DNA from: Aureococcus anophagefferens
Taxonomy: Eukaryota > Sar > Pelagophyceae > Pelagomonadales > Pelagomonadaceae
NCBI RefSeq assembly: GCF_000186865.1
Contig: NW_008705563.1
Span: forward strand, 21,938-57,412
Length of the DNA: 35,475 nt
Direction of reading: 5' to 3'
Positions within the stretch are counted from its first letter, which is position 1. Each line of letters starts with the position of its first letter. The position numbers and the translations under genes were made by a program. Below are positions 1,326 to 25,080 of this stretch, in pieces. The notes below the pieces were generated by a model, which saw only the letters and a program-made list of their open reading frames with translations, did no database searches and was not told the DNA's origin.

Positions 1326-4300
1326 ATGGTCGTGCGCGAGCAGAAGGAGTGGTCCTACGCTAATTTCCAGCGGCCCAAAGCGGGGAGCCGCAAGAGCCCG
1401 CGCGGCGCGTCGCTGCGGCCCTACGTCAAGGGCCCGAGGCGCGTCGTCGATGCCAGCTGGGCCGGCGGCGGCGACGCGTCGGGCGACGGCGAGTCGCTCG
1501 AGGACCGCGACGCCGCGAGCTGGCTGCCCGGCGGCGCGACCTACTACGGGTCGCTGGGCGCCGGCGCGGCCGCGGCCCGGGGCGCGCTCGAGGTCGTGCC
1601 GTCCGCGGCGCGGGCCGCGTCCGCGCCGCCGCGCGCGCGGCCGCCGGCCGACGACGGCGCGCACGTGCGCACGGCGCTCAACTTCCTCATGCTCGAGGGC
1701 GCCCAGAGCGCCGAGAGCATGTGCCGCCAGCTCCGGGACCTGGGCCTCAACGAGGAGGCCGCGCGGGGCCAGGTCGCGCGGCGACTCCGGGCGACCGCGC
1801 GACCGGGCGCGGCGGAGCCCGAGGACGCGCCGCGGCCGAAGCTGCGCGAGGAGACGCTGGACCTGCGGCGGCGGCTCCGGGAGCACTTCGACAAGCTCAG
1901 CGCCGCCGAGGCGCGGGACGCGGCCGAGGCGCCCGCGCCCGCGGCGCCGCCGCCGCGGGCCCGGATCCTCGACGAGGCGACCGCGCCGAGCGTCGCCGCG
2001 TCGCCGCGCGTCGTCGTCAGCGACCGGCGGCCCGCGTCGAGCCCCCACGGCCGGCGCTGCGCGTCGCGGCCGGGGAGCCGCCAGGCGCGCGGCGCGCGGC
2101 CCGCGACGGCGGACCCGCGGCTCGACTTCGGCGACGGCTTCGGCGACGTGCTGGGCTCGCCGCCCGCGAGGACGCGGAGCCGGTCGCCGCCGCGGTCCGC
2201 GGCGTCGCCCGAGCGGTGCGGCCCGCGCTTCGGCGACGACGTCACGGCCGTGATCTGCCCGTCCTGCAAGTGGGACCACGGGCGCCGGTGCACCTACTGC
2301 CTGCTCCCGAAGAGCGCGTTGACGCCGCGGCTGAGCCTCAAGGACGTCGGCGCGCGGCTCCTGAAGAAGCACCCCGGCCTGAAGGCCGCGGAGTTGCTCG
2401 ACAAGCTCGAGGCCTACGGGCGCAACGACGGCGTCGCGGCCGAGACGCACGCGAATCTCCGGCTGCCGCGGCCCGAGCCGCGGTCCCTGGCGCACCTCTG
2501 CCCCATGCACGCCCTGGAGCGGGAAGCGCTGGAGCACGTCGCCGAGCGCCAGGACGCGTCGCTGAAGCGCAAGGACGCGGAGCGCGCGGCGCAGGGACGG
2601 GTCGAGGACGGCCTCCGCGTGACGATCGCCGAGCTCAGCGTCGGCAACGAGGCCTTCGAGAGCCGCATCGCCGGCGCCATGACGACGCTGAGCCTGAGCC
2701 ACAAGGAGATGATGACGTGGCAGGAGACGGCGCTCATGGGCCACGAGGACCACGCCCAGTTGGCCGCGAAGCACGCCGCGGTGCTCGACGCGAAGGCGTC
2801 GCTGGCCTACAAGCAGCGGGGTCTCGAGGAGCACAACAAGCAGCTGCGGCTCCAGGTCCACTTGCTCGAGGGCCACGTGCGGGCGCTGCAGGAAGATAAG
2901 AAAAAGCTCGTCGCGCCGCCGCCGCCGCGGCGCGTCCGCCACTTCGGGTGCCAGACGGCGACCTTGGTCGAGCGCGTCGTCACGGTCTACGCGCCGGCGC
3001 CGGCGCCCGTCGTGTCGCCGCCGCCCGAGGAGCCGCGGAGCGAGGCGCCGTCCGAGGACGAGAGCCTCATCACCGCGGGCTCCGCGAAGACGCTCGGCTT
3101 CTCCGCGACGCTCGAGGAGATGCACGCGATCCTGGAAAAAAAGGCCAGGGCCGACTTCGCCCACGCCGCCGAGGGCGCGGCGAGGCAGGACCTGCCGCGC
3201 TTCGTCGAGGCGCACATGGCCAAGAAGCACGGCAGCGAAAAGGCCGCGCGCGCGAAGACGCGCGTCTTCGCGACGTCGGTCCTCAAGTGGGAGCGCCACA
3301 AGGGCATCGGCCGCCTCTACGCCTTCGCCATCGCCGCGGGCCTCATGCACACGGACGCGTGGAGCCCCGCGCTGTCCGACGTCGCCGTCGGCCTCTTCGC
3401 GGCCGCGTTCTCCAAATCGGACGGCGCGGGGCTCGCGGACTTTTTGAGCCGGAACACGATCGTCTGCGCCGGCGAGAAGCGGCGATTGGTGGACGCGCTG
3501 ACGCTCGCGGCGCCCAAGGCCGCCGCGGCGTCCGCGTTTTTGGGCGCGAACGTCGCGCGCGGGGCGCCGCCGGCGCCCGCGCAGTGCCTGCGGGCGGTGG
3601 CGTCGGAGGTGCAGCTGCGGCGTCTCTTCGTCGCCATCGACCGCATCCCGACGGACGCGAAGACGAAGACCGGCGAGCCGCTGTTGGACTTCGAGTTCTT
3701 TCTGCGGTTGGTCTTGGATTTCTACATCTCGCGCGCGCGCGCCGTGCTGCGCTGCCTCGAGCGCTGCTTCGCGGAGCTGTGCGCCGGCGGCGGCGACGTG
3801 TCCTTCGGTGCCTTCGCTTCGTGCCTCGACGAGCACCGGGTCGTCTACCGGGGCGTCGCGGGCTGTGTGGAAATCAACCGCTGGTTTGGGACGTCCCGAC
3901 CAAACTTTGAAATTCTCTAGCTCAGCCACATCGAAGTCGATTCGGCTGATTCTTGGACGGATCGATCGCTCTCCTCGAGTTCTTGAAGCAGAGTTGAAGG
4001 GCTTGTGTCGAACCTTTCGAATACGCGCACATTGAAGTCGGGTTGAAGATTTGATTTCCCCGCAGGTCGCCGGCGACGCGGCCTACGCGGACTTCGGGTC
4101 CGCGGACGAGGCGCTCAACGTCGCGGGCCGGGGCCGCGCGTCGCTGGGCGCTAGGCAGCGGGCGAAGAAGGAGAACCACGGTCGCCGGCTCCAGGTCTGG
4201 AAGGCGCTGCGGCTCGAGGCCGCGGCCACGGACAAGGGCGGCGCGCGCGCGTCGTCCGCGCGGAGCGTGCGGTCTTCCGCGGCGAAGCGCGCGTCGGCGG

Positions 4301-4524
4301 CGAGCCTCGCGAAGAAGCTCGAGAGCGCGAAGAACGAGGAGCTCGAGGCCATGGCGCTGAGCCTCGACGCGGCGCGCCTCGCGCGCGCGTGCTTCGTCGC
4401 CCACGTCGTCCCGGCGGACCCGCCGGACAACGAGGTCAACGACCAGGCGGCCCTCGACACGGTCCTCTCGGCCCTCGACGTCGTCGTCCACGACGAGGGC
4501 GACGCGGCGACGGCGCTCATGTAA
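1326..4524 (+). CDS. Large coiled-coil protein with a Cys-rich motif, two exons split by an introner
   Basis: Exons 1326-3854 and 4066-4524 give 995 residues. From N to C: a disordered basic start; a short helical patch around residue 120-160; a long Pro/Ala/Arg-rich linker; a compact Cys motif near residues 309-325 (CPSCKWDHGRRCTYC, probably metal-binding); a coiled coil about residues 390-530; then a mostly helical C-terminal half with acidic, EF-hand-like stretches lacking a clear calcium loop; and a second basic coiled coil near the end. The 211-bp intron is in phase 0: the exon 1 frame would otherwise read into the element and stop at 3918-3920, while splicing gives the smooth join YRG-VAGDAAYADF. 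I do not recognise the family; the layout is reminiscent of cytoskeletal or ciliary proteins, which is a guess. A possible AATAAA lies at 4573. Confidence 0.75.
3855..4065 (+). mobile_element. Introner element 1 (intron made by a non-autonomous DNA transposon)
   Basis: The 211-bp intron consists of an 8-bp target-site copy (GTCGCGGG, 3855-3862) and a 203-bp element (3863-4065); the second target copy (GTCGCCGG, 4066-4073) begins exon 2, with one mismatch. The element ends are imperfect inverted repeats: CTGTGTGGAAATC at the left and, reversed, CTGCGGGGAAATC at the right (11 of 13 match). The donor GT is supplied by the target copy and the acceptor CAG by the right terminus. The body is clearly poorer in GC than its surroundings and has a perfect 10-bp palindrome GGGACGTCCC at 3889-3898. 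It aligns without gaps to the reverse complement of the element at 8836-9038, with 24 differences in 203 bases by hand count. Confidence 0.9.
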
Positions 4525-4572
4525 AAGCTTCAACTTGCCGCGTTTTTTAATGGGGCTGCCCTCGCACGAAAA

Positions 4573-4578
4573 AATAAA
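4573..4578 (+). terminator. Possible polyadenylation signal AATAAA
   Basis: An AATAAA hexamer lies about 50 bp past the stop codon of the coiled-coil gene and 36 bp before the next start codon, inside an A-rich patch that stands out in this GC-rich DNA. Use of AATAAA in this lineage is not certain. Confidence 0.3.
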
Positions 4579-4613
4579 GTGCTGATGGCTGCGCCCCGCT
4601 AGGCCGCTCCGCG

Positions 4614-5831
4614 ATGGGCCTCCTCTTCCTCGCCGCGGGCTACAGCGCGACGTCGGCGACGCTGTCCATCGTCAACAAGTGGGCCCTCGTGCGCTTCCCC
4701 TACTCGGGCGCCCTCACGGTGCTCCAGTTCGGCTTCGCCGCCGGCGCCGTGCGGCTTTTCGCCGCGCTGAAGCTCGTCGAGTGCGACGCGCTGGACTGGA
4801 AGACGGTCAAGGCCTTCGCGCCGGCCGTGGTCATGTTCTACGCGTCCATCGCGTCGAACATGCGGCTCCTCGCCGCGTCGACCGTCGACACGTTCGTCGT
4901 CGTCCGTTCCGTCGTGCCCATCGCGACGCAGGTCGGCGAGCTCCTGTTCTTCGAGCGGTCCGTGGCGCCGGCGCCGAGTGCGCTCCAGGTGGCGTCCCTC
5001 GCCGTCATCGCTGTGGGCGCCGCGGGCTACGGGTCCGCGAACGCGGCCGTGTTGTCGCCGGCCGTCGCGGGCTGGGCCGCGCTCTATCTGGCGTGCATCT
5101 CCGGCGACACCCTGGTGGTGAAGAAGGTCGTCTCGTCCGTGGAGTTGAGTAGATGGGGCTACGTCTACTACAACAATTTGCTCGCGCTCGCGGTGTTTCC
5201 GGTTTGGGCGTGGTTATCCGGAGAGCTCGCGCGGCTCGCGACCGAGAGGCCCCTGGAGGCGCTCGGCGACCCGGTGTCCTGCGCGGCCGTCGCGCTCTCC
5301 TGCGCCATCGGCCTGGGCATCTCCTTCTTCGGGCTCAACGCGCGGCGCGCGCTCTCCGCGACGGCGTTTACCGTTTTGGGCGTCGCGTGCAAGTTCCTGA
5401 GCATCGCCATCAATTCGACGGTCTGGGCCCACCACGCGCCCCACGCGGCCCTCCCCTGGCTGCTGTTGGCGCTGTTGGGGTCCGTGCTCTACCAGAAAGC
5501 GTCGAACCTGGCGAAGGACGACCGCGACCGGCGGACGTCGCGCGACGCCGCCGAACAGCGGAAGCGGGACCGGCGCGGCGCGGCGGCGTGGCCCGCGCGG
5601 CTCGGGGTGCTGGTGGCGGCGGCGCTGGGTGTCGCCGCGCTCCGGGCCGCGCTCGCGCCGGCGACGGCGGTCGTCCGCCCGTCGCCGGAGCTCGCGGAGC
5701 GGCTCCGCGCGGAGGAGCGGCGCGCGGCCGCGGCCGAGGCGCTCGCCGAGGAGGCGATCGCCCACGTCGAGGCCATGCGCCTCGACCGCGACGCGGCGCG
5801 CGCGCGGCTCCGCGGGGCGCGGGGGATGTAA
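4614..5831 (+). CDS. Nucleotide-sugar transporter-like protein (TPT/DMT superfamily, GONST-like)
   Basis: This is a 405-residue multi-pass membrane protein of the drug/metabolite transporter superfamily, whose TPT/NST branch exchanges nucleotide sugars across the Golgi membrane. The first helix starts at residue 1 (ATLSIVNKWAL, as in NST N-termini), and about nine hydrophobic segments follow to residue 295. The segment GLNARRALSATAFTVLGVACKF matches the conserved penultimate-helix region of plant GONST-type GDP-sugar transporters (SATAFTVxGVxNKF), followed by INSTVWAHHA. After the core comes a charged linker, one extra hydrophobic segment (about 325-345) and a basic/acidic coiled coil to the end, which ordinary NSTs lack. 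The substrate cannot be read from sequence; a GDP-linked sugar is the best guess. The gene is single-exon and lies 90 bp after the previous gene on the same strand. Confidence 0.75.
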   Translation: MGLLFLAAGYSATSATLSIVNKWALVRFPYSGALTVLQFGFAAGAVRLFAALKLVECDALDWKTVKAFAPAVVMFYASIASNMRLLAASTVDTFVVVRSVVPIATQVGELLFFERSVAPAPSALQVASLAVIAVGAAGYGSANAAVLSPAVAGWAALYLACISGDTLVVKKVVSSVELSRWGYVYYNNLLALAVFPVWAWLSGELARLATERPLEALGDPVSCAAVALSCAIGLGISFFGLNARRALSATAFTVLGVACKFLSIAINSTVWAHHAPHAALPWLLLALLGSVLYQKASNLAKDDRDRRTSRDAAEQRKRDRRGAAAWPARLGVLVAAALGVAALRAALAPATAVVRPSPELAERLRAEERRAAAAEALAEEAIAHVEAMRLDRDAARARLRGARGM

Positions 5832-6010
5832 AAGGCGGGTCGATCGTCGATGGGTGGGGGCCCTGAGACGCGGCCATGGCCGGCCGGAGGCCGTCGCGCC
5901 GCGACCAGCGGCGTGGCGGATTTGCTGGATCTTGGCTTTGAAGCCCAGAGTCGCTTCGCGTCACGCACTCGCCGCTCGCATCGACGAGCCGCCGCACGGA
6001 ATCACCGTCG
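5832..6010. other. Intergenic spacer before the pyrophosphatase gene
   Basis: This 179-bp spacer between two same-strand genes must hold the end of the transporter transcript and the promoter and 5' UTR of the pyrophosphatase gene. I see no RNA gene or repeat in it. Confidence 0.4.
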
Positions 6011-6817
6011 ATGTACACGTCCGCCACCCTCATGCTCGCACTGGCCGCGCGCGGCGCGTCGGCCTTCGCCGCCGGCGCCCGCAGGGTGTCGGCGACGGCG
6101 CTGCGCGCCACGTCCACCGTCGTCGAGGGCGAGGAGGGCACGGAGTCCTACGCCCAGTACTTCGTCGACGCCGACGGGTCGAAGATCAGCCCCTGGCACG
6201 ACATTTCCCTCATGGACGGCGACGCCTACAACATGGTCACGGAGATCCCCAAGTACGGCACGGCCAAGATGGAGGTCGACACCAAGGGCGAGAACAACCC
6301 GATCGTCCAGGACATGAAGAAGGGCAAGCTCCGCTTCTACCACGGCCCCATCTTCTGGAACTACGGCTGCCTGCCCCAGACCTGGGAGAACCCCAACGAG
6401 GAGCACCCCGTGCTCAAGTGCTTCGGCGACGACGACCCCATCGACGTCGTCGAGATCGGCTCGTCGGCGCTCGTGCCGGGCTCCGTGACGCCCGTCAAGC
6501 CCCTGGGCGTCCTCGCCATGATCGACGACGGCGAGCTCGACTGGAAGGTCGTCGCCATCGCCGAGTCGGACCCGCTGGCCAAGGAGCTCGACGACATCGC
6601 CGACGTCGAGGCCAAGTGCCCCGGCGTCGTCTCGGGCATCCGCGAGTGGTTCCGCTGGTACAAGACGCCCGACGACAAGCCCATCAACGCCTTCGGCTTC
6701 GACGAGGAGTGCCTCCCCAAGGCCAAGGCCGTCGAGGTCATCGAGGAGACCCACGCGTCCTGGAAGGGGCTCCGCGACGGCTCCATCGACGCGGGCAAGC
6801 TCTGGAAGGGCAACTAG
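6011..6817 (+). CDS. Soluble inorganic pyrophosphatase (family I), probably plastid-targeted
   Basis: The enzyme hydrolyses pyrophosphate to two phosphates and so drives biosynthetic reactions such as ADP-glucose, nucleotide and aminoacyl-tRNA synthesis. The 268-residue protein has the family I signature DDDPIDVVEIG with its metal-binding Asp residues, plus EIPK, YHGPIFWNYGCLPQTWENP and a C-terminal KAVEVIEETHASW helix, all as in eukaryotic members. The first 40 or so residues form a signal-peptide-like stretch followed by A-S-A-F-A and an Arg-rich segment, the layout of the bipartite plastid presequence in algae with secondary red plastids (ASAFAP motif). Plastid location is inferred from this. 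The ATG at 6011 is chosen because it gives the complete presequence. No introns are seen, and codon use is strongly biased to C-ending codons, as expected for a well-expressed gene. Confidence 0.93.
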   Translation: MYTSATLMLALAARGASAFAAGARRVSATALRATSTVVEGEEGTESYAQYFVDADGSKISPWHDISLMDGDAYNMVTEIPKYGTAKMEVDTKGENNPIVQDMKKGKLRFYHGPIFWNYGCLPQTWENPNEEHPVLKCFGDDDPIDVVEIGSSALVPGSVTPVKPLGVLAMIDDGELDWKVVAIAESDPLAKELDDIADVEAKCPGVVSGIREWFRWYKTPDDKPINAFGFDEECLPKAKAVEVIEETHASWKGLRDGSIDAGKLWKGN

Positions 6818-6891
6818 ATCGCGGCCGTTCAAGGCCCCGCGAAAATCCCCCGCGCGGCCGCCAAGGCGCCTCCCCGTTTCGTAACGAGCGG

Positions 6892-8043
6892 CTAGGGCGT
6901 AGCGTGGACGGCGACGTGCGCGGACCCGAACGCGGACCCCCAGCGGATCTCGCCGAGGGGCCGGTGGCGCACGCGCCGCCGCGCCTGGGCGACGGCGAAG
7001 GCGTGGGCGACGTCGCGCAGCGTCGGCGCCGCGTCGACGGCCCAGCGCAGGGGCGCGTCGCCGTCGAGGCACCGGAGCCGGGAGATCGACCGATCGACCT
7101 TCGCGGTGTGGTAGGCGTGGGCCGAGCCCTCGCGCCTCCGCAGCGCCGCGGCCCAGGCGCCGAAGTCGACGTCCGTCGTCTCCGGCTGCGCGTCGCCGCG
7201 GCGGAGCGCCGTCGTCGACGCGCGCGAGGCGCCGCGGAGGGGCGCGCCGTCGTCCTCCGGCGCCGGGTAGGGCTCCGCCGCGAGCCGCGCCGCGAGGTCG
7301 CGAAAGGCACCGACGAGGCCCGCCGACCGGCGGTCCCAGCCCTCGACGAGGAGCGCGGACCCCGGCGCGTCCGGGTCTCGCACGGACCGCGCGAGCCAGT
7401 GCTGGAGCTGCGCGTCCAGCAAATCCGACGCGACGCGGCTCATGGGGTTCCAGGCCGTGCGGCCGCCGGCCGTGCCCTTGCGGTGCTCCGCGCGCGCGCG
7501 GCTGAACCTGCGCAGCGAGTCCTCCTCCGTCTCCAGGAAGTAGCGGCCGCGGCCGCTCGGGATCACCGCGCGGGCTTTGAACCGCCGGCTCACCGCGGGC
7601 AGCGCGACGCCCTCGGCGGCGCGCACGTAGGCTAAAATGCGGCCCATGAGGTCGTCCACGCGCGAGACGGCCGCGGCCGCGCCGCTCGAGTTTGTCGCGA
7701 GGCGCAGCGGCGGGACTTTGGGCGCGTCGAGGTCGAGGACGGAGACGGGCGACCGCGGCGCGGCGTCGGCCTTGGCCCGGGGCGACCGCGGCGCGGCGTC
7801 GGCCTCGGCCCGGGGGATGCCGCCGGGCGGCCGGCCCTTGCGCAGCGTGACGACGAGGCCGTTGCGCAGCCTCGTGGCGTCGGTGACCGGCGCGCCGTTG
7901 GCTTCGAGGTAGAGCTCGCCCTTGGCGCGGAACTTGGCCTTGACCGCGGCGAGGAGCGCGTCGGCCGAGCCCGAGCCGCCCGACCATTTCAAGGGCTTCT
8001 CCTGCTGCCCGAAGGCGACGGAGAGACGGATAATCGTGGCCAT
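6892..8043 (-). CDS. Unrecognised protein with ubiquitin-like-sized N-terminus and possible F-box-like segment
   Basis: The ATG at 8043 gives 383 residues; an extension to 8142 exists but looks like 5' UTR. The first 75 residues (from MATIIRLSVAFG to LRNGLVVTLRKG) have the size and strand pattern of a ubiquitin-like or doublecortin-like fold. A Pro/Ala/Asp linker follows, carrying an exact 11-residue tandem duplication of the ADAAPRSPRAK type, coded by a 33-bp repeat. Next is a helical piece (VDDLMGRILAYVRAAEG, LPAVSRRFKA) that resembles an F-box, then an Arg/Ala-rich region with several Trp residues. I do not recognise the family and the domain suggestions are weak. It converges with the pyrophosphatase gene (75 bp between stops) and diverges from the ankyrin gene at 8213. 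Confidence 0.6.
   Translation of the reverse strand: MATIIRLSVAFGQQEKPLKWSGGSGSADALLAAVKAKFRAKGELYLEANGAPVTDATRLRNGLVVTLRKGRPPGGIPRAEADAAPRSPRAKADAAPRSPVSVLDLDAPKVPPLRLATNSSGAAAAVSRVDDLMGRILAYVRAAEGVALPAVSRRFKARAVIPSGRGRYFLETEEDSLRRFSRARAEHRKGTAGGRTAWNPMSRVASDLLDAQLQHWLARSVRDPDAPGSALLVEGWDRRSAGLVGAFRDLAARLAAEPYPAPEDDGAPLRGASRASTTALRRGDAQPETTDVDFGAWAAALRRREGSAHAYHTAKVDRSISRLRCLDGDAPLRWAVDAAPTLRDVAHAFAVAQARRRVRHRPLGEIRWGSAFGSAHVAVHATP
7748..7813. repeat. Tandem duplication of 33 bp inside a coding region
   Basis: Two adjacent 33-bp copies (7748-7780 and 7781-7813) differ at one base (cctTgg versus cctCgg). The repeat is in frame with the gene on the minus strand and duplicates 11 residues of its linker. 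The high identity suggests a recent slippage or unequal-exchange event. Confidence 0.85.
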
Positions 8044-8212
8044 GACGACGCGCTGGAGCTCAATGTGAGAGGCGGTTCGTGGCCATGACGCTGCCAGAGC
8101 GCCGATCTCGGCATCACCGACCCAACTGCACGACGGCAACAACGCCCGTGCACAGCGGCGGAGAGCGTCGACATGGGCAGCTAGCTAAACCCCGACACGG
8201 TAACCATTAACC

Positions 8213-9614
8213 ATGCCGACGCTGCGCAAGTCGGTGCAGATGAAGGTGGACCAGCTGCCCGCGGCCCTGCCGGGCGTCGGGCGGAATCCGAAGAAGGCGC
8301 AGCCGAAGAAGCAGGACACGTACCAGGTCGCCGAGCAGGACCAGGGCGTCATCTTCGCCGCCGCGGAGCGGGGCAACTGGGAGACGATCACGCGCATCTA
8401 CGACGCCCTGGAGCTCGAGCGCGAGCTCTCGGAGATGCCCTGCGAGCACCGCGTGAACCTGGCCACGCGCCTCAACGCCGTCCTGACCGTGTCGAAGGAG
8501 AAGCGCCGCGGCATCTTCGTCGCGGACGTCACGCCCATGGACGGGCCCGACGAGGCCAAGGGCCGCTTCGAGCGCGGGCGCAAGCTGCGGACGACGTCCG
8601 GGCGCGACGTGCAGGAGCGCGGCATCGAGGTGTCGGGGACCGGACGGACGGCGCTGCACATCGCCGCGCAGGCGCACGCGCCTTTGACCGTCGTCGAGGC
8701 GCTCATCAAGCTCCAGCCCTCGGCCGTGCGGAGCCGCGACAACGCGAGTTCGACGCCGCTCCACCTCGCCGCCGGCGGCGGCTTCTGCTTCGCGCGCGCC
8801 AAGGGGCAGTCCGTGCACCACGAGCACGTCAAGCCCGGCGTGCGAATCAAATCTTCAACTCGACTTCAATGTAAGCGTATTCGAATGTTTTGACACAAGC
8901 GCTTCCGCTGTGCTTCGAGAACTCGATGAGAGCACTCGATCCGTCCAAGAATCAGCCGAATCGACTTCGATGTGACCGAGCTCGAGAATTTCAAAGTTTG
9001 GTCGGGACGTCCCAAACCAGCGGTTGATTCCGGCACAGGTCAAGCCCGTCAACGAGAATAAGCGCGCGCGGAACATCATCTCCGCGCTCGTCGACGCGGC
9101 GCCGGAGCTCGCGTCGGCCGTCGACGAGCACAACCACACGCCCCTGGACGTCGCCGTCGCGAACCGCAAGTGGATGGCCGTGGAGCGGCTCGTCGAGGCC
9201 GCGCCGGCCTGCGTTAAAAGATCGGACGCGGCGCCCTTGCCGCTCTACGCCTCCGCGCTCGCCGGCGCGGCGCCGCCCCGGGTGCTGCGATGCCTCGAGG
9301 AGGCGCACCCGCGGAGCGACATGCCCCTGCCGTCGTTGGTGAAATGCAAGTTCTACGACGACGCGCTCAAAGCGGTCACGGAGGAGGCCGCGAAGCGCAA
9401 GGACGACCGCGACCGGCTCCCGCTCCACCTCGTCGCCGCGGACCCGGACGCGCCCGAGGCGCTGATCACCGCTTTACTCGAGGCCTTCCCCCAGGCGACG
9501 AACGCGAGGGACAAGGCCGGCTGGCTCCCGCTGCACGACAGCGCGCACGTCGGCGGGCCCTCGAAGCTCTACCGCTGCCACCACCACGAGCCGCCCCGGT
9601 TCCTGAACTTGTAG
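8213..9614 (+). CDS. Ankyrin-repeat protein, two exons split by an introner
   Basis: Exons 8213-8827 and 9039-9614 give 396 residues. The N-terminal 90 residues are basic then helical; ankyrin-type helix pairs follow. Exon 1 has TGRTALHIAAQAHAPLTVVE and STPLHLAAGGG; exon 2 has HNHTPLDVAVANRKWMAVE, RLPLHLVAADPDAPEALI and GWLPLHDSAHVGG. Ankyrin repeats bind partner proteins; no catalytic domain is present. The 211-bp intron is phase 0 and splicing restores HEH-VKPVNENK, whereas unspliced exon 1 stops at 8891-8893 inside the element. The stop at 9612-9614 lies 26 bp from the stop of the opposite-strand gene. The start ATG at 8213 follows an in-frame-clean A-rich leader (accattaacc) and sits 169 bp from the divergent gene's start at 8043. 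Confidence 0.82.
8828..9038 (-). mobile_element. Introner element 2, inverted relative to its gene
   Basis: This 211-bp intron is an 8-bp target copy (GTCAAGCC, 8828-8835) plus a 203-bp element (8836-9038). The second target copy starts exon 2 at 9039; identity between the two flanks runs 10 bases (GTCAAGCCCG). The element is the reverse complement of introner 1 and has exactly the same length, with 179 of 203 positions identical by hand count. Here the acceptor CACAG is the reverse complement of the element's left terminus (CTGTG), while the other terminus has decayed (CGGCGTG in place of CTGNG). The donor GT again comes from the target copy, so the element supplies a working intron in either direction. 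Confidence 0.9.
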
Positions 9615-16825: not shown

Positions 16826-19800
16826 TTACTGGATGATCTCCGACGGCGCGCCGTCGGCGTCGTCGTCGAGGAGCGCGCGGGCGTCGTCGCGGGGGAGGCC
16901 GGGCGGCGGCGTCGACGGCCACCAGGCGCGGCCCCGCGACAGGGACAGGAGCGCGGGCGTCAAAAATGTGCGGACCACAAAAGTGTCGAAGAGCACGGAC
17001 ACGCCGAGGATGAAGGCCGCCTGGTTCAGAATCGTCGTCTCGGAAAGCAACAACCCGCCGAAGGCGATGGCCATGATGAGCCCCGCCGCGGAGATGATGA
17101 GCCCCGTGCGCTCGATGGCCTCGAGCGTCGCGCTCCGGTCGTCCATGGCGTCGGCGAAGCGGTACTCGTGGACGCGCGCGAGGAGGAAGACGTCGTAGTC
17201 CAACGCCAAACCGACGACGATGGTGAAGCAGAGCAGCGGCGCGAGCCACGACACGCCCGGGTGCGCCGTACGGGTGGTCAAGAACGCGGGCAACTCGGAC
17301 TGGGCCGCGCGCTGGTAGACCATGACCGTCGCGCCGAAGGCGAAGGATAACGTCAGACACAAGGCGCAGACGGACCGCAGCGCCACGGCCAACGACCGGA
17401 ACGAGAGCGTCAACAGCACGAAGACCGCGCCGAGGGTTATCGCGATCACCCCCGGGAAGTTGCCGTAGAGGTCGTCGATGACGTCCTTGAGCCCGCCCGC
17501 GAAGCCGTAGACGTAGGGCGCCACGCCCAGGGCTTTCAGTCGCGACGCGTCGGCGGTCCGCGCCTTGGCGACCCACGCGAAGCCCGCGGGCGAGTAAGGG
17601 GAAGCGTCCAATAACACGGTCGCCGTCACGGCGTCGCGGCTCGCGCTGAGCGACGTTTGAAGGAGGCCGAGCAGCGACGCGCACCTGGCCGTCTTCGGCG
17701 GCGTCCCCGCAGCGACGCACGCCGCGTAGTCCGCGACGGCGACGCGGTCGTCGCCGAGGCGCGTCGGCGACACGACGCGCAGCTGTTGACCTAAATTTCC
17801 CAGCGTGCCGAAGAGATACTCGTCCACGGCGTCGAGGAGCTCGTCATCCAAAGCGCCACCGGCGCGGCCCCGCGCGTCGAACAACACGGTGAACGGCGCC
17901 ACGGCGCCCGCGCCGAAGTCGTCGCCGAGGCGCACCAGCGCTCTTTCGGGCCCCGACGGCGACGGCGCCGTCATCACCGGGTCCGCGCCCGTCTGCAGGG
18001 TCAGGGCGTAGCGCGACACGGGGAACGCGACGGCGACGACGAGCAGCACGACGGCCGCGGCGACGCGGCGGTCGTCCCAGATCGCGGCGCCGACCGCGCG
18101 CCACGCGTTGCCTTTCTTCGCGACGACCGTCGTGCCCTCGGAGCCGGCGTCGTCGTCGTCGACCGCGGTCCCATCCAACAAAGGCGCCTCGAGGCCCGCG
18201 GCCGAGGGCCGGTGCGCCGCGGCCCGCTTCGCGCAGGCCCAACCGACGAACCGCTCCTGCGACGCCGCGAGGCGTTCGCCGCAGACGTGGAGCAGCGCCG
18301 GCGACAGCGTCAGGTTCATGGCCATGGCCGTGCAGAGCCCCACGGACACGCAGACGCCGATGCCCCGCAACAGCGCCGACGGGAACACGAGCAACCCCAG
18401 GAAGCACGCGACCAACGTGCTCCCGGACACCAAAATCGTGTGCCCCGCGCCGCCGACGACCTTGAGCACGCGCCGCGCCTCGTCGGCGACGCCGTCGCGC
18501 CGCGCCTCCAGGTAGCGCGAGCAGATGAAGAGCGAGTAGTCGAAGGACATGGCGAGCGTCAGCGTCATCATCACCTGGGCAGGAAGAGGGTGCGAAATTC
18601 CCAAATTCAAAGGCTCGCCTCTCGGCCGTTTTCCACTCGTTTCGGCTGATCTTTGGACGCGCGATCATCGCTCGGAGCGCTCTCGAAGCGTGGATGCTTT
18701 TCCCGAACGCGCGCGCGCGGAACACTCATATTGAAGCGAACCTGAACCACCCTTTCCCGCCCTCGTCATCACCGACGGCGCGAACGCCGCGACCTGCATG
18801 CGCCGCGCGACCTGGGCCATGATGACGAATTCTAAAACCGTCGTGCAGGCCATGTTGAGCACGGGGATGAGGAGCATGGGGAAGGAGCCGAGCGTGAGGG
18901 CCATGACGATCAACGCGAGCGGCAGCGACCGCATGTCGAGATTCTCCAGATCTTTCTGCGCGCCGGCCGTCGACGCGACGGTGAAGCAGTCCCAGCCCGT
19001 GACGCCGACGCGGAACGTGCCGAGGCCTAAAACAGTCTTCGCGAGCTCATTCACTTTGTCCTGCGCGAAGTTGACGAAGGCCGTCATCTTGTCGGGGTCC
19101 GCGTTCTGTTTGTAATTGACGACGAACGTCGCCGCCGTCGACGAACCCAAACCGCCCGTCGCCGTCGGGGCGTCGACGAGGTTGCCCGCGAGGTACGTCG
19201 CGTTCCGGGCCGTCAATAGACACCAGGCCTCCGGGTCGCCCTTCAAAAAGTCGTCGCCGCCGTAGTCGTTCACGATCGCCGCGGACAGTCGGTCCTCGAA
19301 GGCGCACCAGCGGTCGCGGTGCGTCGCGAGCGTCGCGCCGCGCTTCGCCTCGACCAAGACGATCATGGACCCCACGGACACGGACCCGGGGAACGTGGCC
19401 TTGAGCTTGCCGAACGCCTCCTCGCTCGGCGATCCGGCGACGAGCTGATNNNNNNNNNNNNNNNNNNNNNNNNNNNNNNNNNNNNNNNNNNNNNNNNNNN
19501 NNNNNNNNNNNNNNNNNNNNNNNNNNNNNNNNNNNNNNNNNNNNNNNNNNNNNNNNNNNNNNNNNNNNNNNNNNNNNNNNNNNNNNNNNNNNNNNNNNNN
19601 NNNNNNNNNNNNNNNNNNNNNNNNNNNNNNNNNNNNNNNNNNNNNNNNNNNNNNNNNNNNNNNNNNCTGCCCGCCTCTTGGGAGCGCCGCTCGCAGTCGA
19701 CGAGGACCGGCAGGCAGTCGACCGTACGCCGGAGCAGGGGCAGCACCGTCGCGTTGGAGGCGAGGTGGAAGTCGAGGTCCTCGGTCGCGATGGGCGGCAA
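16826..19800 (-). CDS. MMPL/RND-type membrane transporter, 5' part broken by an N gap
   Basis: Two hydrophobic repeats, each with the RND/MMPL helix signature, are visible: VMMTLTLAMSFDYSLFICSR (followed by YLEAR) and FTIVVGLALDYDVFLLARVH (followed by EYR). Both match the pattern GxxxDYxxFLxxRxxE that holds the proton-relay Asp-Tyr in MmpL and related RND proteins. Each is followed by helices rich in Gly/Ala/Leu and an extracytoplasmic porter loop. Exon 2 is 18574-16826 (582 residues); exon 1 runs from 18773 to the gap at 19449. Past the gap the minus strand at 19667-19800 still reads like the first porter loop (ATEDLDFHLASNATVLPLLR) but in another frame, so the gap length is wrong or hides an intron. 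No reliable start can be named. Substrate unknown; lipids or other hydrophobic molecules are usual for the family. An introner forms the intron 18575-18772. Confidence 0.78.
18575..18772 (+). mobile_element. Introner element 3, a diverged copy
   Basis: In the direction of the transporter gene (minus strand) the 198-bp intron starts with the target copy GTGATGAC (18772-18765) and ends in CCCAG; exon 2 starts with the second copy GTGATGAT. The 190-bp element, read on the plus strand, begins CTGGGCAGG and shares with introners 1 and 2 the block TTCGGCTGAT(C/T)(T/C)TTGGACG in the middle, and the blocks CATATTGAAGCGAACCTGAA / CACATTGAAGTCGGGTTGAA and CTCGAAGC near the right end. Elsewhere it has diverged strongly. 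Like introner 2 it lies inverted relative to its gene. Splicing gives FAPS-VMMTLTLAMSFDYS, which rebuilds the first transporter signature exactly, so the intron is certain even though the copy is old. Confidence 0.82.
19450..19666. other. Assembly gap (217 N)
   Basis: The sequence is unknown here. The transporter's reading frame differs on the two sides, so the stated gap size should not be trusted. Confidence 1.
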
Positions 19801-24525: not shown

Positions 24526-24915
24526 TAAAGCAGATCGGAGTTAATTTTGACCCCTCGAGCTATGGGAGCTATTGGCACTTTTTTTTTGACTTTTTTTTTT
24601 CGATGCTCCTACGCGCCCCGGCGGACCCCCGGGGCACCAGGGGGTGGGGAAGGGCGCTGCGACGCGGCGGGTTGTCGAGGAACTCGCTTTAGCGCGCGTG
24701 CGACGGCCGCGTGTCGCGCCGGCGGCGCCCGCGCGGGACCGCGCGGCGCATTACGACGGTCGGCGCGCGTTCGCCCCCCCCCCCGCGCTCGCGCACGCCC
24801 CGGGCGGGTCCCCGGGGACCCCCTGGACCCTCCGCGGCTCGCGGCGCAAAAAAAAAAAAAGTGAAAAAAAAAGTGACCATAGCTCGGGGGGTCAAAATTA
24901 ACCCCGGGTTGCTTT
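24526..24915. mobile_element. MITE-like element with long terminal inverted repeats
   Basis: The left end (24526-24600) and the reverse complement of the right end (24848-24915) share TAAAGCA, then GGTTAATTTTGACCCC, CGAGCTATGG, CACTTTTTTTTTT and a second T run, so the inverted repeats are about 65-75 bp with a small indel. The body of about 240 bp is extremely GC-rich and codes for nothing recognisable. The element is flanked on both sides by AATAACAC (24518-24525 and 24916-24923), an apparent 8-bp target duplication, though that sequence also recurs in the surrounding array. No transposase is present, so mobility would depend on another element. Confidence 0.75.
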
Positions 24916-25080
24916 AATAACACCCTGCCGATGGCAGCCACTCGATTTTTCAAAATCAATAACACCCTGGCGAAAATTCTCGATAACACCCATAACACCC
25001 AGCCACCCGATCCTTAAAAAGCCAATAACGACCTAACACCCGAGCGTCCGAGGCCAATAACGCCCTAACGGTCTAACGGG
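24916..25080. repeat. Right part of an ATAACACCC-type motif array
   Basis: About nine variants of (A/G)ATAAC(A/G)CCC lie at irregular 8-30 bp spacing: AATAACACCC twice, GATAACACCC, CATAACACCC, AATAACGACC, TAACACCC, AATAACGCCC and two TAACGG variants. The stretch is AT-rich against a very GC-rich background. It is neither a clean tandem repeat nor a standard TTAGGG telomere repeat. Clustered protein-binding sites or an old degenerate repeat are both possible. Confidence 0.7.

Follow-up and report, generated by a model that had tools for sequence, protein, structure and literature searches.

The window analyzed here is a 35,475-nucleotide stretch of the genome of the pelagophyte alga Aureococcus anophagefferens (assembly GCF_000186865.1, contig NW_008705563.1, positions 21,938 to 57,412). 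Two of its genes are each interrupted by an intron of 211 base pairs (bp), and the sequences inserted in them are assigned below to one family of introners, which we call family A. The host genes, the two elements and their target duplications are arranged as follows.

1326 to 4524, forward strand: host gene 1, 995 amino acids once spliced; the frame is open with 3855-4065 removed
3855 to 3862, forward strand: left target duplication of copy 1, GTCGCGGG; its GT is the predicted 5' splice site
3863 to 4065, forward strand: introner family A copy 1, 203 bp, CTGTG...CGCAG; the terminal CAG is the predicted 3' splice site
4066 to 4073, forward strand: right target duplication of copy 1, GTCGCCGG (7/8), the first exonic bases downstream
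8213 to 9614, forward strand: host gene 2, 396 amino acids once spliced, of ankyrin-repeat type, with an open frame and ankyrin-type relatives
8828 to 8835, forward strand: left target duplication of copy 2, GTCAAGCC; its GT is the predicted 5' splice site
8836 to 9038, reverse strand: copy 2 of introner family A, 203 bp, in the orientation opposite to the gene; the predicted acceptor, CACAG, is its CTGTG end in reverse complement
9039 to 9046, forward strand: right target duplication of copy 2, GTCAAGCC (8/8)

The two introns of the window

A first-pass annotation of the window had described both introns (3855-4065 and 8828-9038) as an 8-bp target duplication followed by a 203-bp element, and our comparison agrees on every point of this anatomy. 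After reversal of one copy, the alignment of the 203-bp bodies covers their full length and contains no gap, with 179 of 203 positions identical. This pair is the first and longest of the inverted repeats listed in the window (204 nucleotides, 88%), and the similarity between the introns ends exactly at the element termini. The duplications match at 8/8 positions in copy 2 (8828-8835 and 9039-9046) and at 7/8 in copy 1 (3855-3862 and 4066-4073). Removal of 211 bp leaves an open frame, in phase 0, in both genes, in keeping with the codon restoration that had been predicted.

The hosts were said to be unrelated, and nothing detectable is common to them. Gene 2 has ankyrin-type relatives. For gene 1 no match was obtained, either with the first exon against Pfam families or in a homologue search with residues 560-995. 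Relatives of gene 2 bear on the history of its intron. Two proteins from public metagenome-type contigs, P0121 and P0123 (69-72% identical), cross the junction with no extra residue; these contigs could represent DNA or RNA. At about 70% identity, relatives thus either lack insertion 2 or splice it. A third protein, P0122, is nearly identical to gene 2 and ends in the residues given by unspliced reading of the same intron, indicating that a second sample, from this alga or a very close one, also has insertion 2. A paralogous empty site was also sought; the spliced protein matched only its own exons and one 58-residue stretch elsewhere.

Family A in the genome

Genome searches covered the 49.05-megabase assembly (86 contigs). 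With the window copy as query, a DNA search returned at least 40 places; apart from the query and the other copy of the window, these comprised at least 38 more, and identities were 88-93%. A 34-mer of one element end, allowing up to 3 mismatches, was found at 102 + 114 = 216 places; for a family A 24-mer the count was 870, and the reversed control of each gave 0. A unique two-copy duplication, named in the first-pass annotation as a refuting case, is excluded by these hundreds of further copies.

To describe the family, 86 unique full-length copies were cut from 78 fetched loci picked by similarity to the window copy. At the model boundary, the 8-bp duplication was exact in 49 of the 86 and had one mismatch in 20 more, so that 69 copies were within one mismatch. 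Shuffled flank pairs would be expected to give 0.56 and 1.11 copies in these two classes, or about 1.7 together. The other 17 copies showed at least two mismatches at the model boundary, and several of them fit after a one-base shift. Most copies have CTG...CAG termini.

Some loci held unusual arrangements. At L062 (1992-2057), a copy of about 66 bp retains just the first 49 and the last bases of family A, and a tandem array of units of about 21 bp, AACTTCGATGTGGAAGCCCG, with an introner-like start, lies near it. At L046, four copies are found inside about 1.8 kilobases of one gene region.

Short length, inverted ends, an 8-bp duplication and lack of coding capacity are the anatomy of any miniature transposon, and splicing was judged here from sequence. 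The copies might then be ordinary elements that interrupt genes unspliced, in pseudogenes or unexpressed loci. Against this stands the behavior of the reading frame. The sense strand and frame of each flank were assigned with a codon-usage score that had been trained on window genes and took no account of splice motifs; in the final test (cleaner training set, 150-nucleotide flanks), 82 of the 86 copies were testable. Both flanks were coding on one strand in 76/82. After virtual removal of the element and one duplication, one frame was kept in 73 of these 76 (chance, 1/3), and the inserted length was not divisible by three in 65 of the 73. The result had been 62/64 in an earlier run whose training set included some antisense frames. 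Intron phases 0, 1 and 2 were represented by 36, 14 and 23 of the 73 copies.

The element termini also argue against unspliced insertion. Among 62 copies of the earlier run, the A of the terminal AG was kept at the acceptor end in 62/62 and at the other end in 42/62 (p = 3e-7). Of the 24 terminal positions examined, this A alone distinguished the acceptor end from the other end. Thus it is kept only where splicing needs it, a pattern predicted by splicing and not by mere insertion. Moreover, the open, conserved frame of a transporter gene spans a copy of the related family B, described below. We consider unspliced transposons highly improbable as an explanation of these introns.

At the end that is unused for splicing, the terminal A has become G in 20/62 copies (CAG to CGG), far above the mean divergence, and exchange of CA and CG is also frequent at other terminal positions of family A. 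A possible branch point motif, TTGAT, near the element end was equally common at the acceptor and the other end (52 and 51 of 62) and argues neither way.

The dinucleotide that the duplication supplies at the donor position was GC in 34 and GT in 32 of the 73 frame-keeping copies (66/73 in total). At the duplication end not used as donor, GT or GC occurred in 20/62 copies against a background of 21% (p = 0.04). Since this is barely above background, the bias at the donor seems to reflect which copies survive, not which targets are chosen. From the sequence, we infer that the introns are spliced with a donor GT or GC from the duplication and an acceptor AG from the element end.

Copying of an existing intron into new genes through RNA, by reverse splicing and reverse transcription, would also place AG at the expected acceptor, where the sampled copies have it. 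However, reverse splicing yields no target duplications, which are present in 69/86 copies, and no reversed copies, while the elements lie in either orientation relative to the gene (39 to 34, n = 73); such copying is hardly credible here. A local inverted segmental duplication that brought one intron into the second gene, suggested by two similar introns 4.8 kilobases apart in opposite orientation, is already refuted by similarity that stops exactly at the element ends and by hundreds more copies spread over the contigs, all with separate 8-bp duplications.

Altogether, copy number, 8-bp duplications, terminal inverted repeats, both orientations and conservation of frame and splice ends support the introner reading of the first-pass annotation. 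Both window introns almost certainly arose by insertion of short, non-autonomous cut-and-paste DNA transposons that belong to one family in the genome of A. anophagefferens. A transposase provided from elsewhere would insert the 203-bp element; the observed duplications show that 8 bp of target are duplicated. For target 8-mers whose sense strand starts with GT or GC, the left copy would become the 5' splice site. The CAG of the element, present at both ends as the inverted repeat CTG...CAG, could serve as the 3' splice site in either orientation, and splicing would then take out the element with one duplication and leave the codons unchanged.

Several observations weigh against this explanation. 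In 11 of the 86 copies, the duplication has at least three mismatches or needs a shifted boundary. The flanks vote for different strands in 6/82 copies, and 3/76 are out of frame. A GT or GC donor is missing in 7/73 copies and an AG at the assigned acceptor end in 5/73, some of them through boundary shifts. Finally, searches of the alga's own genome with five transposase families and with end patterns found no autonomous element bearing introner ends.

The first-pass annotation had also suggested recent activity from the high identity of the pair, and this is not supported. The window copies are 88% identical, the closest sampled pair reaches 96.6%, and insertion 2 is also present in the P0122 sample. 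Divergence from the family consensus had a median of 8.4% among the 86 copies (range 2.5 to 23.1%) and was 7.9 and 9.9% for the window copies. The sample was picked for similarity and is yet divergent; therefore it gives no sign of activity in the very recent past.

Family B and its single splice-competent end

A third introner, absent from the first-pass annotation, lies further along the window.

18575 to 18764, forward strand: family B introner, 190 bp; its left end is the acceptor (CTGGGCAG, that is ...CTGCCCAG on the sense strand)
18765 to 18772, reverse strand: family B target duplication, GTGATGAC in the sense direction; its GT is the predicted 5' splice site

Together these form a predicted 198-bp intron (18575-18772) of a minus-strand MMPL-type transporter gene, whose frame is open across the junction. 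The exonic copy of the duplication (18567-18574) reads GTGATGAT and matches at 7/8 positions. The family A profile matched weakly at 18619-18736, and part of the interior is common to families A and B. A decayed family A copy was considered for this intron and rejected, as the genome search shows a family of its own. Indeed, the element was found at 40 or more places, at up to 91% identity, and a family B 30-mer gave 2,078 genome matches (control 0).

The fetched loci contained 27 family B copies with a duplication, 21 of them exact; these loci had been chosen for family A content and are mostly genic. The sense was readable in 25, one copy being without usable flanks and one having been dropped for unclear ends; for the copy at L024, the ends were placed by hand from the alignment. 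The acceptor end starts with CTG in 25/25. The other end starts with CAG in 17, CGG in 6, CTG in 1 and GAG in 1. In all 24 copies with a single CTG end, this end lies downstream (p = 1e-7). Donors are GC in 11/25. Family B would thus share the mechanism proposed for family A, but it is one-handed: one end only reads CAG into the exon, and in genes this end lies downstream.

Near the element ends, nearest neighbors were of the same sense in 22.3/25 copies (null 12.6). In the interior the value was 13.9/25 (null 12.5, p = 0.29). Orientations that differ near the ends and not in the interior fit a split into two sub-lines in which opposite ends are competent for splicing.

One possible joint reading, which we put forward tentatively and with less than balanced confidence, is that family B preserves the step from miniature transposon to introner. 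The free end, CAGGG, would be hAT-like, and at the other end a change of A to T at the second base would give CAG on the RNA, that is, a 3' splice site. The family would comprise two sub-lines that carry the change at opposite ends and differ in sequence within about 25 bp of the ends but not in the interior, each persisting in genes only where the changed end is downstream. Family A, changed at both ends, would be useful either way. In the same reading, GC donors carried by the target, about as frequent as GT donors, would also explain the exceptional share of GC-AG introns, 39.6%, in this alga.

Candidate mobilizers and known introners

The 8-bp duplications of families A and B match the duplication length of the hAT superfamily, and this length fits several superfamilies. 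Ends of hAT elements are of the type C/T-A-A/G-N-G. The free end of family B, CAGGG, fits this type in 17/25 copies; CTGTG of family A differs at the second base.

In the alga's own genome, the hAT domain PF05699 gave 4 weak matches (22-24 bits), and no introner-type ends were present in the 3 kilobases around each. KDZ (PF18758) had no match in this genome or in any control genome, so that its absence carries no information; neither Merlin-type (PF12762) nor MULE (PF10551) domains matched in the own genome. P-like PF21787 matched one relic (C25:178372-178818); of the surrounding 6.2 kilobases, 2,462 bases are N, and the readable rest shows no introner ends. Ends of family A combined with another interior were found at 18 places, starting with CTG in 17 and CAG in 1. 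There were no facing pairs among them within 30 kilobases, and an introner variant accounts for the only place that fell in a fetched locus (L077). This search did not support relatives of family A with CAG ends. Carriage by viruses was also considered: a family A 23-mer had no exact match in viral contigs, and an 18-mer of the shared core had two viral matches. Viral carriage was set aside, as profile matches there extend over only 22 to 47 positions and were taken as chance.

These searches gave some side observations. Two loci, L080 and L081 (G000:C1 and C13), are 98.6% identical over 2.7 kilobases, and each has a 344-codon frame weakly matching the hAT dimerization domain. In the P-like relic (L083:2559-4329, G000:C25), the GC-rich first part comprises 399 codons with 7 in-frame TAG and no TAA or TGA, and the AT-rich later part contains all three. 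Assigning Q, K, S or E to TAG gave scores for the relic that did not discriminate between these. The 160-bp stretch between its two parts resembles an introner-derived intron, with a 6/8 duplication.

Elsewhere in the window, an inorganic pyrophosphatase gene (6011-6817) has 238/262 and 204/234 identities to proteins labelled A. anophagefferens, the differences being mostly gaps; for this one protein, the near-identity outside gaps agrees with the species. An intergenic foldback element (24526-24916) has nested inverted arms of 40 nucleotides (88%) and 35 nucleotides (91%) with A/T runs. It is flanked by the direct repeat ATAACAC, and its ends, TAAAGCA, are unlike introner ends.

Introners of A. 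anophagefferens were reportedly described in 2016 by Huff, Zilberman and Roy (Nature 538:533), as elements of about 210 bp with terminal inverted and direct repeats and high copy number. Each is said to carry one splice site, the other being co-opted from the duplicated target, and they are reported to insert between nucleosomes. Species, length, repeats, copy number and division of the splice sites are the same as here, and no difference was shown. The window introns are a known phenomenon in a known species and mainly a rediscovery, with extra detail on how copies gain their splice sites.

Other published reports allow further comparisons. About 210 bp is given as the characteristic introner length in A. 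anophagefferens, with reference to Huff 2016, and introns of about 210 bp in Pelagomonas calceolata, a related pelagophyte, belong to the same length class, a likeness by length alone (PMC9481584). Introner family 4 of an Aureococcus sp. TARA metagenome-assembled genome, from a related alga, has an 8-bp target duplication as here. However, both splice sites lie within that element, and its transcripts gain 12 bp, whereas the copies described here would leave the transcript unchanged (PMC9860276). Introners of Symbiodinium microadriaticum resemble those of the window in their terminal inverted repeats, their own 3' splice site and a 5' site from the duplication; they differ in a 4-bp duplication and an unrelated host (PMC9860276). 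In A. anophagefferens, 39.6% of introns are GC-AG, and their origin was called an enigma (PMC3033335). About half of the introner introns sampled here have GC donors. Introners are a natural source of GC-AG introns.

More generally, introners are the best-supported genome-scale source of new introns. The window is a clear example, in which the limits of the introns correspond to the parts of a transposon insertion. The contrast between a two-handed and a one-handed family relates the places where copies survive to how many of their ends can act in splicing. It also provides an explanation, open to testing, of how an element end may become a splice site. Finally, insertion into GC-rich targets may be connected with the high frequency of GC-AG introns in A. 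anophagefferens.

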